NCBI GenBank assembly: GCA_902620405.1
Contig: CACNIC010000002.1
Location: 1 to 64,000, forward strand
Length of the DNA stretch: 64,000 nucleotides
Direction of reading: 5' to 3'
Origin: an uncultured SAR202 cluster bacterium
Lineage (GTDB): Bacteria; Chloroflexota; Dehalococcoidia; Lucifugimonadales; Lucifugimonadaceae
In this document: piece by piece, positions 15,084 through 50,006 of the stretch
How the letters are laid out: the number at the start of each line of letters is the position of its first letter
Position numbering within the stretch: the stretch's first letter is position 1
Translations under genes and position numbers: made by a program
The notes under the pieces: model-generated
What the model saw: the letters and a program-made list of their open reading frames with translations, nothing else
What the model was told of the DNA's origin: nothing
Databases searched by the model: none

Positions 15084-16757
15084 ATGTTAAAAAATATTTA
15101 TCTTAAATCAATTTTATTAATCTTGTTATTAGTATCATTAGTTACTGCTTGTTCAGATTCAAGCTCCGATGAACTTATGACTTCAAATCAGGAAGTTGCT
15201 GATGACAAGGGTATTGCTCCATCTTTACAGAATGACCAAGCTGGTTCAGGACAATCTGAAGGTGGCACTTTAAAAAGACTATGGGGTGATCCCCCAACGT
15301 TAGACCCTCACCTTGTTACCGACACAACTTCTGCTGGTTTAGTAGTAGAAATGTTTTCTGGTTTAGTAAGCCTAAATTCAGAACTTGAAATAGTCCCCGA
15401 TCTTGCTGAAAGTTGGGATGTTGGTGAAGGTGGCACACAATATACTTTCAACTTAAGAGATGATATTAAATTTTCAGATGGTTCGAATGTAACTGCAAGA
15501 GACTTTATTTACTCATTCAATAGAGCTGCAAATCCAGACACAGAATCACCAGTTGCTGAGTTATATCTTGGAGATATTGTTGGTGCCCAAGATGTAATTG
15601 ACGGAAATGCAACTGAAATTAGTGGGATTAAACTTATAGATGATAAGACAATACAAATTAATATTGATTCGCCAAAGGCATATTTTTTAGCTAAATTAAC
15701 ATATCCAACCGCTTACGTTTTGAAGGAATCAAATGTTAATTCTGGTGAAAATTGGACAGATAATCCTGTTGGCACAGGACCTTTTGCATTGGAAAGGTAC
15801 GATCTTGGGCAAATACTTATTTTAAAGAGAAATGATAATTATTGGGGGGATTTAGCTAAACTTGATCGAGTCGAATTTAACTTGGCCGGTGGGGTTCCAA
15901 TGGCAATGTATGAAAATGGAGAAATCGATATAACAGGAGTTGGATTAGCTGATTTAGAGAGAGTTCAAAATCCTAGTGACCCCCTTAACAATGATTTAGT
16001 AATGGTACCACCTTCATTTACTATAAATTATATAGGTTTCAATGTAACCATGCCCCCATTTGATGACCCAAAATTTAGAATGGCACTAAACTATGCTGTT
16101 GATAAGCAATTAATTGCTTCATCAGTTTACTCGGATTTAGTTAAGCCTGCATATGGTATTTTGCCACCTAATTTTCCAGGTTTTTCAAGTGATGTAAGGG
16201 GGCTTGAATATGATGCAGACAAAGCAGTTAAATTACTTGAGGAATCAAAATATGCTGATCCTAACACTAGACCTCCAATTGTAGTAACGATTCCAGGAAC
16301 AGGTGGCTCTCCAAGCCTTGATATGGAGGTTGTAGCTGATATGTGGGACAGAATACTAGGAGTACAAATTGAAATACAACAGGTTGAATGGGCGACTTAT
16401 TTGCAAGACCTGCACAGAGAAAGACTTCAAGTATGGGGAGGGTCTGGATGGCAAGCAGATTATCCTGATCCACAAGACTTTATTGATATACTTTTTCATT
16501 CAGAAAGCAAAGGTAATCACGGGCTGTACAAAAACAATGAAGTTGATTTATTGCTTGAGCAGGCCAGAACTGATCAAGACCCTCTTTCAAGATTTAGTAA
16601 GTACAACAAAGCTGAGCAACTCATAATTGACGATGCTCCATGGCTACCAATGTGGTTTGATCAAGAAGGCATGGCATTAATTAATTCCAGAGTAAAAGGC
16701 TTTGAGTTTACTCCGTTAATTGTGCCAAAACTCAAAAACGTTTATATTCAAAATTAA
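15084..16757 (+). CDS. ABC transporter substrate-binding lipoprotein (SBP family 5, peptide type)
   Basis: This is the extracytoplasmic binding component of an oligopeptide/dipeptide-type importer. The 557-residue protein has a signal peptide with lipobox LVTAC, then an acidic low-complexity spacer and the SBP_bac_5 domain. Family landmarks are GGTLKRLWGDPPTLDPH, the LAESWDVGEGGTQYTFNLR strand and FRMALNYAVDKQ. The two permease genes follow directly, but no ATPase genes (DppD/DppF) are present in this locus, so they must be encoded elsewhere. The substrate cannot be read from sequence; peptides or other small ligands are possible. Confidence 0.92.
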   Translation: MLKNIYLKSILLILLLVSLVTACSDSSSDELMTSNQEVADDKGIAPSLQNDQAGSGQSEGGTLKRLWGDPPTLDPHLVTDTTSAGLVVEMFSGLVSLNSELEIVPDLAESWDVGEGGTQYTFNLRDDIKFSDGSNVTARDFIYSFNRAANPDTESPVAELYLGDIVGAQDVIDGNATEISGIKLIDDKTIQINIDSPKAYFLAKLTYPTAYVLKESNVNSGENWTDNPVGTGPFALERYDLGQILILKRNDNYWGDLAKLDRVEFNLAGGVPMAMYENGEIDITGVGLADLERVQNPSDPLNNDLVMVPPSFTINYIGFNVTMPPFDDPKFRMALNYAVDKQLIASSVYSDLVKPAYGILPPNFPGFSSDVRGLEYDADKAVKLLEESKYADPNTRPPIVVTIPGTGGSPSLDMEVVADMWDRILGVQIEIQQVEWATYLQDLHRERLQVWGGSGWQADYPDPQDFIDILFHSESKGNHGLYKNNEVDLLLEQARTDQDPLSRFSKYNKAEQLIIDDAPWLPMWFDQEGMALINSRVKGFEFTPLIVPKLKNVYIQN

Positions 16758-39755: not shown

Positions 39756-41264
<1,509 letters not shown>

Positions 41265-41491: not shown

Positions 41492-41926
41492 ATGAATAAA
41501 TTTTTAATTCTAACTTTTTTATCTATTATTTTTATTATTTCATGCTCTGGAGATAAATCTGAGGCAAGGATCAGTTTGGAAAATTATTTAACGCATTTGA
41601 AAAATGAAGAATTTCAAAAAGCTTACAGTTATATGTCCAATAATTTAAAAGAAAAATGTGAATTTAATGAATTTGAAAATAAAGCATTAAGTAATTATGA
41701 AGCTATAAGGCATTCAAGAATAATTTATTCTGGAGAAAGAGTAAGTAATGAAAAAGTTAAAATCGAATTTATTATTAAAATTGATGAAATGGAAGTTAAC
41801 TTATTTGATTTACAAATAATGGACCCGTATGCTTCTGAAGAAACAGCTACATTCATTTCTGAATCAAATAATTGGAAGCTTGATAATCTAATTTGGCCAG
41901 TTGATTGGTGTGAGGATATTAAATGA
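41492..41926 (+). CDS. Lipoprotein with NTF2-like (DUF4878-like) domain
   Basis: This 144-residue protein has a signal segment and lipobox ending FIISC, so it should be anchored in the membrane. The mature part begins with a helix (ARISLENYLTHLKNEEFQKAYSYMSNNLKEKC) typical of small NTF2-like/DUF4878 domains, then beta strands ending in a C-terminal DWCEDIK. Function unknown. It overlaps the next gene by four bases (ATGA), so both are made together. The family call is tentative. Confidence 0.68.
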   Translation: MNKFLILTFLSIIFIISCSGDKSEARISLENYLTHLKNEEFQKAYSYMSNNLKEKCEFNEFENKALSNYEAIRHSRIIYSGERVSNEKVKIEFIIKIDEMEVNLFDLQIMDPYASEETATFISESNNWKLDNLIWPVDWCEDIK

Positions 41927-43581
41927 ATACCCCTAAAAGGCTTTTAATTTATGTTGTATCTTTTATTACCTTAAATGTTTTTGCATTTGGGCTGTCTAGT
42001 TTAGTTGGCTGGATGTTTGATTTGATTGGGATTATTGGGGATTCTCAGCCTCAAAATATTGCACCTTTCATAGCTGCAATTATAGTTTGTTTGCCTATAT
42101 GGCTTTATTTTTGGAAACTATCTAAGAGAAACGTACAGGATTTTCCAGAAGAAGAATTTTCTTCTATAAGAAACTTGTATTTAAATCTTGTTAACGGATT
42201 ATCAATAATAGTTATTTCGATATCAATTTTTGGCTTTTTTAATTCAATCCTTAATTTTGAAGTCCCATTTAACTACCTACCTAATTTGATTGTATGGATT
42301 CCAATTTTATTACTTCATTTAAATCCATCTCAAAAAAATTGGGAAAAAGGAAATAAAAGAATACATGAATTCTTCCTAAATGTAGTTTTTATAACATCAA
42401 TTATTGTAATTTTTATTTCTTCAAGAGGTCTTATTTTTGATATTTTAGATAATCTATTAATTTTAATTTCAAGCAATGACTTAATTGTTGGAGATGCACA
42501 AGAATTTGAAATAGGAATAAGTGTATTATCTGCATTGGCAACTGGATTCATATTATTGATTTACTCCTGGAGCCTCAGAATAAAAAAAATAGATAAAAAT
42601 TTCAGGACTATTGATCTGTCTGTTATAGCAATATCACAGGCATTTATTTTTTTATTATCCATATTTGCACTATTAACACAATCTATACTTTTAATTTTTG
42701 AAAATGACTCGAATTCGAGCGAAAGTATTTATATAAAACTAGGATATATACCGGAATCATTAAGTTTTACAATAGTATCTCTTATTATTTGGCTATACTT
42801 CTCATCAGGATTTCTCCCAACCAAAATAAAAAGTTTTTATGAAATAAGTTCAAAATTAATTAAATGGATATACAGATATGCATTAAGAGCAATTTCATTA
42901 GTATTTTTATTTTCAAGTTCAGTATCCTTATTAATTTTTATACTAGGAATCCCTATAGTTATTTCAGAAGATGTATTAATTTCACCTGAGAGGAGTTGGG
43001 GTCTCCAATTTCTTTCTTCTTCAATATCTGCACTAATTATTGGTTTATTAACATTGAAATATATAAATATAAAAATTAAAAAAGACCTTGATGAAAATAA
43101 ATATATTGTGCAAAAATCTTATATTTATTTGATTGCAATAATTTTTGCTTTTTTACTTATAGGTTCGCTAATAGCTATTTTGACAATAATTATAAGAGAT
43201 TTGATAAGCTGGAACTTTAACCTAACTACATTAGAATTGATTAGGTTCCCTCTTTCATTTGCCATTAATTCATTAATCATTTTATTTATTAATAAAGATG
43301 ATATTACTTCTAGACTTAACTCAAAATCTGAAGAAAATAATGAAAAGAAATCAATTCAAGTAATTTCTCTGAAATCATTTGAAAAGATTAAAGAAAACAT
43401 TTCCGATACATATGAAGTAACTTCGTGGAGGTCATTTGAAGATATAAAGAAATTTAAGGCCTCTAAAAAGGGCTTAGATGAATTATCTAATACTGTAAAC
43501 TCCCTAGAAAATAAAAATAATGATTATTTTTTGGTTGAAGATGATAATGGTGATATTTTGCTTTACTACTACAAGAAATAA
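41923..43581 (+). CDS. Polytopic membrane protein, DUF5671-like
   Basis: This 552-residue protein has about twelve hydrophobic segments. The N-terminal TPKRLLIYVVSFITLNVFAFGLSSLVGWM and repeated W-[IL]-x-x-x-L patterns resemble the duplicated DUF5671 domain, a family of unknown function common in Chloroflexota. The last 100 residues are soluble and charged, with two similar short segments (SLKSFEKIKENISDTYEV and SWRSFEDIKKFKASKK) that look like an internal repeat. It is coupled to the preceding lipoprotein gene and ends just before tRNA-Ile. Confidence 0.72.
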   Translation: MNTPKRLLIYVVSFITLNVFAFGLSSLVGWMFDLIGIIGDSQPQNIAPFIAAIIVCLPIWLYFWKLSKRNVQDFPEEEFSSIRNLYLNLVNGLSIIVISISIFGFFNSILNFEVPFNYLPNLIVWIPILLLHLNPSQKNWEKGNKRIHEFFLNVVFITSIIVIFISSRGLIFDILDNLLILISSNDLIVGDAQEFEIGISVLSALATGFILLIYSWSLRIKKIDKNFRTIDLSVIAISQAFIFLLSIFALLTQSILLIFENDSNSSESIYIKLGYIPESLSFTIVSLIIWLYFSSGFLPTKIKSFYEISSKLIKWIYRYALRAISLVFLFSSSVSLLIFILGIPIVISEDVLISPERSWGLQFLSSSISALIIGLLTLKYINIKIKKDLDENKYIVQKSYIYLIAIIFAFLLIGSLIAILTIIIRDLISWNFNLTTLELIRFPLSFAINSLIILFINKDDITSRLNSKSEENNEKKSIQVISLKSFEKIKENISDTYEVTSWRSFEDIKKFKASKKGLDELSNTVNSLENKNNDYFLVEDDNGDILLYYYKK

Positions 43582-43618: not shown

Positions 43619-43695
43619 GGGCTGGTAGCTCAGCTGGTTAGAGCGCTACTCTGATAAAGTAGAGGTCGGATGTTCGAGTCATCCTCAGCCCACCA
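43619..43695 (+). tRNA. tRNA-Ile (GAT), flanking an integrated element
   Basis: A complete cloverleaf: acceptor GGGCTGG/TCAGCCC, D stem GCTC/GAGC, anticodon arm CTACT-CTGATAA-AGTAG (anticodon GAT), T arm GGATG-TTCGAGT-CATCC, discriminator A and encoded CCA. It stands away from the 16S gene by 2.4 kb rather than in an rRNA spacer. Its 3' part from the anticodon stem onward recurs exactly at 45757..45807. Confidence 0.96.
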
Positions 43696-43696
43696 T
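43646..43696 (+). repeat. 51-bp direct repeat, copy 1 (attL-like, inside tRNA-Ile)
   Basis: The sequence from the anticodon stem through the CCA end of tRNA-Ile plus one T is identical to 45757..45807. The match stops on both sides (G versus C before it, C versus T after it). This is the usual attachment-site geometry for tyrosine integrases that target tRNA 3' ends. Confidence 0.92.
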
Positions 43697-43707
43697 CAAA
43701 TTTAAAC

Positions 43708-45219
43708 CTAGATATCCCTATATTCTTGCTCAACTTCTTGGAACCATTCAGTTAATTTAGTCTCCATTTTTTTAGCTATTTTAGGATTTTCTTCTGCAAC
43801 ATTATTATTTTCACCAGGATCATTATCTAAGTTAAATAATTCTGGCTTAGGAATTGGTTCGTTTATAACACTTTCAGCCCAAGGCTCAGCCATTAATTCA
43901 GTTACTGTTTCAGGTTTATATTTGTAATCTATATCCCTTTGAATATATTTTTTATTATTCTGTATATGTTCAGGATCTACAACTCTGTCTATTTTTGGCC
44001 TTACTAATTTCCAAGGACCTATTCTCATTCCAGTATTTGATTCAACTCTTGGAGGGTATTCACTAAAATGCCAAAATTGAGGATAGTCATTTTTATTTAT
44101 TTCTCCTCTTAGTATTGGAAGAATATTTCTGCCATCTAAAGGTAAGAGGGGCTTTATTTTTGAACCTGTTGCGGCAATTAGCGTGGGAAGCCAGTCCACG
44201 AAATGTATTAGTTGGTTAGTGTTTTTTACTTCAGGTAAACCATCTGGCCACCTTAATATCATTGGGACTTTAATTCCCCCTTCATATACAGATCCTTTTG
44301 ATCCATTATATCCACAATTAAACCTATGCTCTGCAATTATTTCCCCCTTTTCATTTCTTTTAACTGGATAATCAGTTTTACAATCTTGAGATTCTCCAAA
44401 AAGTCTGGTCATATGATTATTAAGCGACTCGTAGTATTGATTTGGAACTTGGTCAGGACGATGATGAAATGCAGGCCCATTATCACTTGAAAACATTACA
44501 ATAGTGTTCTTTTCAAGATTTAATTTTTTTAGAGTCTCTAAAATTCTTCCCACTTGCTGATCCATTACTTCTATCATTGCATAAATTATTGCAGTTCCAA
44601 GAGTAAGTCCCATTTTTAAGTATGTATCAATAATCTTCTGCGGAGCTTGCAAAGGTGAATGAGGAGCATTGAACATTAACGAAAGGAAGAAAGGTTCTTT
44701 TTTATTTCTATTAATAAAATCAATTGCATTATCACCAAGTACGTTAGTAAGGTATGAGCCATCAGATTTAATAAAGTGACCATTTTTTTCAATTATCCAT
44801 TCATAAAAATCTGCCCAACCACCTCTGAAACCTATGAATTCATCAAAGCCTCTATTATTTGGGTGAAATCTACTATCTAGTGCTCCATTATGCCATTTTC
44901 CGATTAATCCAGTTTTATAACCTATAACCTTAAAGTAATCTCCAATTGTAGTTTCTCTGGTTGAAAGTCTATCCTGGCCCCAAGTTTCTGCTGGTGAAAT
45001 TACTCCAGTTCGCAATGGATACCTTCCAGTAAGTAATGCAGCTCTTGCAGGTGAGCATACAGGTGCTCCTGAATAATGTTGTGATAAGCATGTGCCTTCA
45101 TCTATTAAACTATCAAGATTAGGAGTTTTGACATAACCATTGTTAAATTTTCCGAAGTCTCCATACCCCATGTCATCTGCAACCATCATAATGATATTAG
45201 GTTTTGTATTTTGAGCCAT
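43708..45219 (-). CDS. Type I (formylglycine) sulfatase
   Basis: This 503-residue arylsulfatase-family enzyme hydrolyses sulfate esters. The formylglycine precursor motif C-x-P-x-R is present as CSPAR at 55-59, followed by AALLTGRYPLRTG. The N-terminal metal-binding aspartates are in VADDMGYGD; GKWHNG and SDNGPAFHH supply further active-site residues. No signal peptide is seen, so it may be cytoplasmic or exported by another route. An AAAGGA site precedes the ATG. It is the main cargo of the tRNA-Ile-bracketed segment. The maturase (FGE or anSME) is not in the window. The substrate is unknown; sulfated algal glycans are plausible in a marine organism. Confidence 0.93.
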   Translation of the reverse strand: MAQNTKPNIIMMVADDMGYGDFGKFNNGYVKTPNLDSLIDEGTCLSQHYSGAPVCSPARAALLTGRYPLRTGVISPAETWGQDRLSTRETTIGDYFKVIGYKTGLIGKWHNGALDSRFHPNNRGFDEFIGFRGGWADFYEWIIEKNGHFIKSDGSYLTNVLGDNAIDFINRNKKEPFFLSLMFNAPHSPLQAPQKIIDTYLKMGLTLGTAIIYAMIEVMDQQVGRILETLKKLNLEKNTIVMFSSDNGPAFHHRPDQVPNQYYESLNNHMTRLFGESQDCKTDYPVKRNEKGEIIAEHRFNCGYNGSKGSVYEGGIKVPMILRWPDGLPEVKNTNQLIHFVDWLPTLIAATGSKIKPLLPLDGRNILPILRGEINKNDYPQFWHFSEYPPRVESNTGMRIGPWKLVRPKIDRVVDPEHIQNNKKYIQRDIDYKYKPETVTELMAEPWAESVINEPIPKPELFNLDNDPGENNNVAEENPKIAKKMETKLTEWFQEVEQEYRDI

Positions 45220-45395
45220 TATGTTTTTCCTTTGATTCTTATTTTATTCTTAACTTAATAATTTATAAAATATCAAAGACTCAATCATAGGTTCAAATAG
45301 CCCTATCTTTAGGGTTATTATTGTGGGGGACGTATAGTATAAGAATTTGGTGTAATTAGTTAATATTTATCAAAAAGAATTATATCTTAGAATTA

Positions 45396-45610
45396 ATGGA
45401 AAATAGTAACCAAAAAAATAAGAGTTATTGGGATAAAAATCCAATGACCTATAAACCTTTCGATGATGAATTTAGTGAAAGGATTTTAGATAATCAAGAA
45501 GATTTTAAGTATCTTAATGATTTTTATCTTAAAGAAAATTTTTATTTGATGAAATTGCAGTATCAGACTTTTATGAAAACAAGATAGATGAGAAGGTAAT
45601 TGATGATTAA
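45396..45610 (+). pseudogene. Truncated, probably frameshifted methyltransferase-like gene
   Basis: An ATG at 45396 opens a 63-residue frame whose start (SYWDKNPMTYKPFDDEFSE) resembles the N-terminus of some SAM-dependent methyltransferases. The frame then drifts into low-quality sequence and stops at 45587. From about 45545 the +2 frame reads on protein-like as FDEIAVSDFYENKIDEKVIDD to a stop at 45610, suggesting a frameshift near 45540. No SAM-binding motif is present, so most of any original gene is missing. It lies inside the tRNA-Ile-bracketed segment. Confidence 0.5.
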
Positions 45611-45649
45611 GGATGGAGTCCACCAACTACCCTCTCAATAAATATGGCT

Positions 45650-45673
45650 AGGGTCTTACAAAGGGTCTTACGA
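45650..45673 (+). repeat. Tandem 12-bp repeat (candidate integrase arm sites)
   Basis: AGGGTCTTACAA (45650-45661) is followed at once by AGGGTCTTACGA (45662-45673). Short direct repeats beside an attachment site can be arm-type binding sites for tyrosine recombinases. Here they lie 84 bases inside the right-hand repeat. Two copies only, so this is weak. Confidence 0.45.
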
Positions 45674-45756
45674 TTATAGGGCTATTAATAATCATTAAAT
45701 ACTATTAATCTGTTTTAAAGAATAAATAGGGATTATGGTGTTCAAACTAGGTTTAC

Positions 45757-45807
45757 CTACTCTGATAAAGTAGAGGTCGGATGTTCGAGTCATCCTCAGC
45801 CCACCAT
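45757..45807 (+). repeat. 51-bp direct repeat, copy 2 (attR-like tRNA-Ile 3' fragment)
   Basis: An exact copy of 43646..43696: anticodon stem-loop, variable loop, T arm, acceptor 3' strand and CCA of tRNA-Ile, without any 5' half. It cannot fold as a tRNA. It marks the right border of the putative island, 17 bases before the next lipoprotein gene's stop. Confidence 0.92.
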
Positions 45808-45824
45808 TTTTAGATATAGATAGT

Positions 45825-46442
45825 TTAATCCTTCTCAATAAGTTTTACTGCTAAATCTTCAAGAAATTTTATTGTTACATCGCTTGAGTCTCTTAATGGT
45901 TCAGCCATCAAGACTGTATTACCGATAATTATATATTCAGTGTAAAGAGGTTCTCTTCGTGGGCATGACCTTGAATTTAAAATTTGTAATTCATTGTCAT
46001 TAAATAGCTTTAATTTATTTAAAAGCAGGGTATTTTCAATTCCAAAATTAAGTTCTTCTTTGTGTCTTAATTTTATTCCGCCTCGCCCTGTCCACCCTCC
46101 TGTGTCACCGTGGCCTCTACATTTAGTTTTCTCGACATTAGGCCCGTGGGCAATATTTTTTTCAACTACTTCAATTATATTTGTTTGTTCTTGAGCAGAC
46201 ATTTTTCCTTTTAAATTAGCAATTTCGGCAGAGGGATACATTAAAACAGCTACCTCCCTGCCCTTATAGAATGCCCACTTTGATTCAATTGATTCAGGAA
46301 AAAATGTATCAAAATCTCCTCGTACTTTTATACCAACAGATTTAATATCTTCAATAGAATATACTGTATCTGTTTCTAAATTGACTGAACTAGAACAACT
46401 TAATAAAAAAATTATTGAGAATATTGCGACAATTTTTTTCAT
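45825..46442 (-). CDS. Lipoprotein of unknown function
   Basis: This 205-residue protein begins with a signal segment and lipobox IFLLSC. The mature part has AVLMYPSAEIANLKGKMSAQEQ, a Gly/His-rich stretch (RGHGDTGGWTGRGG) and a C-terminal EYIIIGNTVLMAEPL. The order of an A-x-x-x-A helix and a late Y-x-I-x-x-N-x-[IV]-[LI] strand recalls the lipoproteins at 11044 and 50007. The similarity is low and a shared origin is only a suggestion. Cysteines near residues 108 and 159 might pair. It lies just outside the tRNA-bounded segment. Confidence 0.72.
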   Translation of the reverse strand: MKKIVAIFSIIFLLSCSSSVNLETDTVYSIEDIKSVGIKVRGDFDTFFPESIESKWAFYKGREVAVLMYPSAEIANLKGKMSAQEQTNIIEVVEKNIAHGPNVEKTKCRGHGDTGGWTGRGGIKLRHKEELNFGIENTLLLNKLKLFNDNELQILNSRSCPRREPLYTEYIIIGNTVLMAEPLRDSSDVTIKFLEDLAVKLIEKD

Positions 46443-49421: not shown

Positions 49422-50006
49422 ATGAATTTTAATTTCAAAAATTTAAAAGAATTTTTTAGAGATAAATCTAGAGATAATTTATATCAGAATTTAAAGGATA
49501 TTGGTGTTGACTGCAATCTTGCTGAAAGAGGATTAAATGAAGAAAAGTTATTTAATCCTTGGCATAGAAGAAGCTTGGGATTAATAAATATTAACTCTGA
49601 TGAACCAATAAAATATATAAACATAATTAAGCAAGATGGTGGAAAGAATAATCCTCCAAGATGGTGGTATTTTTTTGCAATACCAGATAATAAAATTATT
49701 TCAAAAGATAAATCAATTGAGGTTAAGTCAATTAGAAGGAAATCTACTCCTTTAATTGGAAAAGTAGAATCAGTAAATTGGGAACCAAACAGTAATTCAA
49801 ATAATTTAGCTAAAATATTTACTGATGATGATGATATAAATTCTCTTTCTATTAACCTTGGAGATATTAAAGTCCAAAGTCTTCACGATAATTTTTCAGG
49901 ATTTTCAATAGAATTAGAATTTAAGGTTAAAGAAAAAAAATTAGATTCAGATTCATGGAAGTCTCTTAATAAAATTGCCAGACACTGTTTAGATATTAAT
50001 TTTTAA
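49422..50006 (+). CDS. Unrecognised 194-residue protein
   Basis: No known domain is recognised. The protein lacks a signal peptide. An N-terminal helical part (FFRDKSRDNLYQNL) contains a CNLAERG turn and LFNPWHRRSLGLI. A mixed alpha/beta part includes NNPPRWWYFFAIPD, which has an unusual Trp/Pro cluster. The C-terminal region is a charged beta-rich segment. It starts 33 bases from the divergent 408-residue gene; the two may share regulation. It converges on the lipoprotein at 50007, whose stop codon abuts its own. Confidence 0.65.
   Translation: MNFNFKNLKEFFRDKSRDNLYQNLKDIGVDCNLAERGLNEEKLFNPWHRRSLGLININSDEPIKYINIIKQDGGKNNPPRWWYFFAIPDNKIISKDKSIEVKSIRRKSTPLIGKVESVNWEPNSNSNNLAKIFTDDDDINSLSINLGDIKVQSLHDNFSGFSIELEFKVKEKKLDSDSWKSLNKIARHCLDINF

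Follow-up and report, generated by a model that had tools for sequence, protein, structure and literature searches.

Within the 64,000-nucleotide stretch of DNA analysed here (the window), an intact tRNA-Ile gene and a copy of its 3' half bracket a sulfatase gene and no recombinase. This arrangement raises the question of whether the bracketed block is an integrative island and, if so, how it came to be without an integrase and whether it can still move. The source genome is a 967-kb draft in 32 contigs and is 70% complete. The features of the locus, in window coordinates, are as follows.

41923..43581, + strand: left flank, DUF5671 membrane protein gene, also upstream of tRNA-Ile in two genomes of the same genus, G001 and G006
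43619..43695, + strand: intact tRNA-Ile(GAT), the regenerated target gene (ARAGORN, Rfam)
43646-43696, + strand: attL core, the 3' part of tRNA-Ile (51/51 repeat)
43697..43725, + strand: left element terminus, overlapping the last sulfatase codons (23/30 versus the tRNA-Pro element of G006)
43708..45219, - strand: sulfatase cargo, 503 amino acids, with a truncated and altered COOH-terminus (Pfam Sulfatase)
45220..45756, no strand: right inner end, non-coding, 26% G+C, 537 bp, including a 63-codon stretch at 45396-45584
45650..45671, + strand: direct repeat with a 12-bp period, AGGGTCTTACAAAGGGTCTTAC, proposed integrase arm-type sites, 85 bp from the core
45757..45807, + strand: attR core, identical to the 3' part of tRNA-Ile over 51 bp (51/51)
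45825..46442, - strand: right flank, lipoprotein-like gene of a multi-copy family, with its best G001 match in the same backbone

ARAGORN and Rfam (68.7 bits) agreed on one intact tRNA-Ile(GAT) gene. The segment at 45757-45807 repeated tRNA positions 28-78, from the anticodon stem to CCA plus one T, with identity at 51 of 51 bases (E 1.6e-21), in direct orientation and at an offset of 2,111 bp. Given that the runner-up match to this segment in the genome was a whole tRNA-Val with 74% identity, the copy reflects neither chance nor generic tRNA likeness. Both boundaries thus carry a direct repeat of the tRNA 3' part and the tRNA is left whole, the arrangement that characterizes a tRNA-targeted integrative element. 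Such an element also encodes its own integrase, which was the case for relatives in G024, in G087 and at tRNA-Pro of G006 but not for the window block, where neither the list of open reading frames nor Pfam revealed a recombinase between the two repeats. The reading frame on the minus strand was identified as a sulfatase (Pfam Sulfatase, E 4.5e-60) with a CSPAR motif of the C-x-P-x-R type. A sequence-only reading of this DNA had described the complete tRNA and its copy, the sulfatase between them and the missing recombinase in the same terms. It had also placed a broken methyltransferase-like gene in the interval. That label was rejected: at 45396-45584 there is an open stretch of 63 codons for which Pfam gave nothing even with a cutoff of E 1, and it is left unassigned.

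The surroundings of the block showed some further features. The window contains a 16S rRNA gene at 39756-41253 and no 23S rRNA gene, and the tRNA-Ile gene lies 2.4 kb downstream of the 16S gene with two protein genes in between, an arrangement that resembles a dismantled rRNA operon. For the tRNA-Trp/Leu/Cys/Leu cluster of the window, no 3' copies were found in the genome. The lipoprotein-like gene at 45825-46442 has no Pfam match and is one of a family that reaches nine matches per genome in the genus (seven in the window genome); its best match in G001 adjoins the orthologue of 49422-50006.

Searches of relatives detected 3' fragments of tRNA-Ile in five of 76 genomes of the family. In the genus, seven of ten genomes gave no tRNA-Ile or left-flank gene, and the tRNA was recovered in the remaining three (the window genome, G006 and G001), all of which carry a bracketed, integrase-less segment beside it. 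These segments differ in size and cargo: 2.1 kb between copies with the sulfatase in the window, 2.4 kb with a C5 cytosine methylase and an HNH protein in G006, and 7.2 kb with seven metabolic genes, including an NAD-formate dehydrogenase, in G001. The left-flank genes are common to all three genomes, and a set of right-flank genes is common to the window and G001. Each fragment corresponds to the tRNA allele of its own host, with copies in the two congeners matching at 46/46 and 42/45 bases, and alignment of four islands showed that identity begins at tRNA positions 28-39, in the anticodon stem-loop. The proposal that the repeat marks site-specific integration at a tRNA is thus borne out by islands that recur at one gene with different cargo and similarly placed breakpoints, and the tRNA-Ile-bracketed block in the window is a real island.

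Versions of the island with an integrase, which the same reading had suggested looking for, were present in relatives. In G024, of a sister genus, a 7.6-kb version contains a divergent tyrosine integrase beside the tRNA (PHROG integrase, E 4.3e-31); Pfam did not detect this protein, and no close relative of it was found in the genus. In G087, of another genus, an integrase (PF00589, E 2.7e-24) and arm repeats are located at tRNA-Ile. None of the ten genomes of the genus showed the exact empty site anticipated for the window island, in which tRNA-Ile would adjoin the lipoprotein gene. Its siblings have approximate empty sites: in G097, the DNA immediately following the tRNA aligns with what follows the G024 fragment (80% over 149 bp), and in G001 the DNA immediately following the tRNA aligns with what follows the G006 fragment. 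An exact search of viral contigs with the 37-bp 3' end of tRNA-Ile yielded no match, and the left-flank protein, searched against named genomes, led to no site beyond that of G001.

Integrative elements of the tyrosine-integrase family PF00589 have their core in the anticodon loop, carry a core copy that restores the tRNA, and possess tandem arm-type sites beside the core. In the window island, AGGGTCTTACAAAGGGTCTTAC at 45650-45671 forms a 10-bp repeat with a 12-bp period, 85 bp before the attR core; only one other G+C-rich lag-12 repeat of at least nine bases occurs in the whole window, at position 321, and no lag-11 or lag-13 repeats were found near the island ends. Repeats at the corresponding place are TACCCCACTTTTTACCCCA, 98 bp from the core, in the tRNA-Ile island of G006 and GTTGACCCAAACGTTGACCCAAAC, 76 bp from the core, in that of G001. 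Tandem 12-bp repeats thus precede attR in all three islands of the genus, with a chance of about 4e-7 to 6e-6 at the observed density, a rough figure given that the zone and the G+C threshold were picked after the first cases had been seen. The window repeat (GACCCT on the minus strand) is oriented opposite to the repeats of the relatives. Repeats at the left end begin 60 bp from the tRNA end in the tRNA-Pro and tRNA-Val islands of G006 and the tRNA-Ile island of G001, and are absent from the window island and from the tRNA-Ile island of G006. The 60-bp spacing, the unit common to both ends and the presence of an integrase in one of the elements favor reading these sequences as arm-type sites, and we propose this putative assignment on the basis of spacing, motif and position.

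Two further arm-like repeats of the same family are intergenic in G001 (G001:C36:8307 and 15502; L023:3308 and 10503). No tRNA-Ile fragment was detected beside either, and they are possibly relics of older islands; the repeat at 15502 has a TTAGGTTT..GTTTACA flank, as at real island ends.

A degenerate form of the repeat pattern, run over the ten genomes of the genus, gave 65 matches compared with 34 for the reversed pattern, so that about half of the matches are background. Coding sequence and a tRNA-Met gene account for many of the other matches. In G005 (L228:2681-2723, G005:C7), the 12-mer TGACCCATGATC (minus strand) recurs several times in tandem inside a reading frame that adjoins ATP synthase genes; this is a coding look-alike of the arm repeat. 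Among the loci that were fetched, two new tRNA duplications lay beside pattern matches. The first, at tRNA-Val(TAC) of G006 (L224:11231-13885, G006:C12), is a 2.5-kb island with a 45-bp 3' copy, no integrase, and a cargo of a GFO/IDH/MocA oxidoreductase and a radical SAM/SPASM protein. The second, at tRNA-Ala(GGC) of the window genome (L225:1213-2326, G000:C1:1213-2326), is a 1.0-kb segment that contains a DUF805 gene and has a 12-bp tandem repeat but no integrase; it is bracketed by a copy of the 5' half (positions 1-38) and the whole tRNA and resembles a mirror-image island on the 5' side of the tRNA.

An element that retains its integrase (PF00589) was found at tRNA-Pro(TGG) of G006 (L226:14623-19799, G006:C17), first by a family search that preceded the repeat probe. 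It spans 5.1 kb and has a 45/45 3' copy and repeats at both ends, two copies of TGTCCCCCTATT on the left and two of TGCCCCCCTATT on the right. It also encodes small lipoproteins and a 360-residue protein for which Pfam gave no confident match. Arm repeats at both ends were also present in two integrase-less islands, those at tRNA-Val of G006 and tRNA-Ile of G001. The tRNA-Met integrases of G001 and G008 have no 12-bp repeats and were left aside.

The sulfatase appears to have come from outside the genus. Four genomes of another genus carry copies, away from tRNA-Ile, to which its protein is 75-76% identical, and no match at 1e-80 was found in the nine other genomes of the window's own genus. 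Core proteins of the window share only 41-70% identity with that other genus (tmk 41%, rhodanese 45%, pdxT 48%, ATPase 51%, rph 51%, gap 59% and pdxS 69-70%), a comparison of identities from which we consider the sulfatase probably laterally transferred. The suggestion that a metabolic gene rides on a tRNA-targeted element is in line with this comparison. A simple count gave a dN/dS of about 0.11-0.13 for the gene. A second case concerns the formate dehydrogenase of the tRNA-Ile island of G001, whose protein and DNA sequences are 95% and 89% identical, respectively, to those of a copy in the other genus that lies a few genes from the sulfatase. Close copies of this enzyme occur in only six of 76 family genomes and are 92-95% identical across three genera. 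The identities of the sulfatase and the formate dehydrogenase indicate that islands at tRNA-Ile receive genes that move between genera. The NAD-dependent formate dehydrogenase is encoded at L023:5427-6623 in G001 and also in the window genome (G000:C7:28908-30101), there just downstream of tRNA-Ala(TGC); three of the copies in other genomes are near a tRNA, and a full check of one revealed no tRNA copy bracketing it.

The left junction bears on the loss of the integrase. Over the 30 bp that begin at 43696, the window and the left terminus of the G006 tRNA-Pro element agree at 23 of 30 positions; the similarity is confined to these 30 bp, and its level is reached by 1.6e-5 of window 30-mers. 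The window sulfatase ends in ...EYRDI*, whereas its homologues in the other genus end in ...DYVTETKNSKQ*, and the altered COOH-terminal residues are encoded by the left element terminus. We give a probability of roughly 0.75 to the reading that the window block is the remnant of a tRNA-Ile integrative element from which the integrase and left arm were later deleted, leaving a sulfatase from another genus. An element with core, arms and integrase would have entered the anticodon loop of tRNA-Ile by means of its tyrosine recombinase, duplicating the tRNA 3' part so that the restored, whole tRNA forms the attL junction and the 51-bp copy attR. The cargo from the other genus may already have been aboard or may have joined later. 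A deletion with one end point inside the 3' end of the sulfatase gene and the other about 25 bp within the left end would then have removed the integrase and the left arm, fusing the sulfatase, minus about ten COOH-terminal codons, to about 25 bp of left terminus, and the leftover gene would have been kept by purifying selection.

Two origins had been left side by side in the sequence-only reading, a decayed stub of a larger island and a minimal element moved by an enzyme from elsewhere. The stub fits better, because the right arm-like repeats are kept, the left arm is missing and the sulfatase is truncated where left-end sequence begins; the minimal element is less likely for the window island. 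One-armed ends may nevertheless be normal in some islands, as in the tRNA-Ile island of G006, which runs counter to the deletion account. The window island is probably not self-mobile. Given that its left arm is gone, it is probably fixed in place, and movement today would need accretion with a neighbor at the same tRNA or homologous recombination between the tRNA copies.

The likeliest alternative is a small non-autonomous element that normally has no integrase and continues to depend, in trans, on a tyrosine integrase encoded elsewhere in the cell or in the population. It would accommodate the several small integrase-less islands of two genomes (2.1, 2.4, 2.5 and 1.0 kb), which hold one or two cargo genes apiece and keep the core and arm repeats, as well as the retention of arm repeats at both ends of two integrase-less islands and the presence of an integrase-bearing relative in G006 itself. 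The integrase of that relative is no obvious helper, however, because the arm unit of its element, TGCCCCCCTATT, differs from the TTGACCC type of the tRNA-Ile, tRNA-Val and tRNA-Ala islands. The window genome has only one PF00589 gene, which is not linked to a tRNA and whose best score is in the range of one strong match per genome; another integrase could be missed in a genome that is 70% complete. With its left arm missing and its cargo gene truncated at that junction, the window island is unlikely to be such an element. Its two-armed siblings, at tRNA-Val of G006 and tRNA-Ile of G001, may perhaps move in trans. A broader notion, that tRNA genes of the genus serve as ports for a pool of 1-2.5 kb cassettes of one or two genes moved in trans by sibling integrases, is tentative and rather improbable.

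A less probable alternative is that the 3' copy was left behind long ago by an unrelated insertion and that the sulfatase arrived later by homologous or illegitimate recombination, so that the two never formed one unit. The sulfatase does sit at a locus other than tRNA-Ile in the four genomes of the other genus, and the DNA beside tRNA-Ile varies between close relatives in another genus, as though the zone were generally changeable. The 51/51 identity and the intact arm repeat nearby argue instead for a fairly recent insertion, and the sulfatase directly abuts left-end element sequence, which together render this account quite improbable. A metagenome misjoin caused by the 51-bp repeat, conceivable in a 32-contig draft given that repeats are common misjoin points, is hardly credible, with the same architecture and left-flank gene in the independent G001 and G006 and a right flank syntenic with G001.

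The remnant reading depicts a streamlined, mostly uncultured lineage that gains single catabolic or defence genes by way of tRNA-anchored islands that lose their integrase. What is new here is the 12-bp signature as a finder of integrase-less islands, together with evidence for island ports at several tRNA genes of a single streamlined genus. This short tandem-repeat signature finds islands missed by integrase-based searches, and it makes the question of dead stubs versus helper-dependent cassettes directly testable from population reads.

Among known systems, tRNA-targeting islands and prophages of the tyrosine-integrase family (PF00589) share with the window block an anticodon-loop core, a restored tRNA and, putatively, tandem arm-type sites beside the core, whereas the block has no integrase and its arm-like repeats are one-sided. 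The putative cassette pool, with cargo, anticodon-loop core and 12-bp arm repeats but no integrase, would resemble integron cassettes that use a shared integrase. Tycheposons, described for Methylophilaceae, are tRNA-anchored elements of 4-200 kb with a tyrosine recombinase (PMC10872708); the window block is likewise a tRNA-anchored island with metabolic cargo in a streamlined aquatic bacterium, but at 2.1 kb and without a recombinase it falls outside that class. Cis-mobilizable elements (CIMEs) have lost their integration and transfer genes, retain attL and attR, can accrete with incoming elements, and are described as decay products of ICEs and IMEs (PMC5704250). They are the best-matching known class, given that the window block also lacks a recombinase and keeps both att cores; it differs in having lost the left arm as well and in that integrase-bearing relatives came to light, but neither transfer genes nor a conjugative ancestor. 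The window island is thus most likely a CIME-like deletion derivative of a larger tyrosine-integrase element in the class Dehalococcoidia. Islands at ssrA of Dehalococcoides are inserted at the T-loop with a DsiB serine-recombinase module and are bounded by repeats of the 3' end of the RNA gene; 15 of 31 are without an integration module, and their authors proposed these as possible CIMEs (PMC3146451). The window island differs in its tRNA-Ile target, its anticodon-loop site and its putative tyrosine-type arm repeats, and it has no recombinase gene, yet the ssrA islands, from the same bacterial class, are its nearest precedent.
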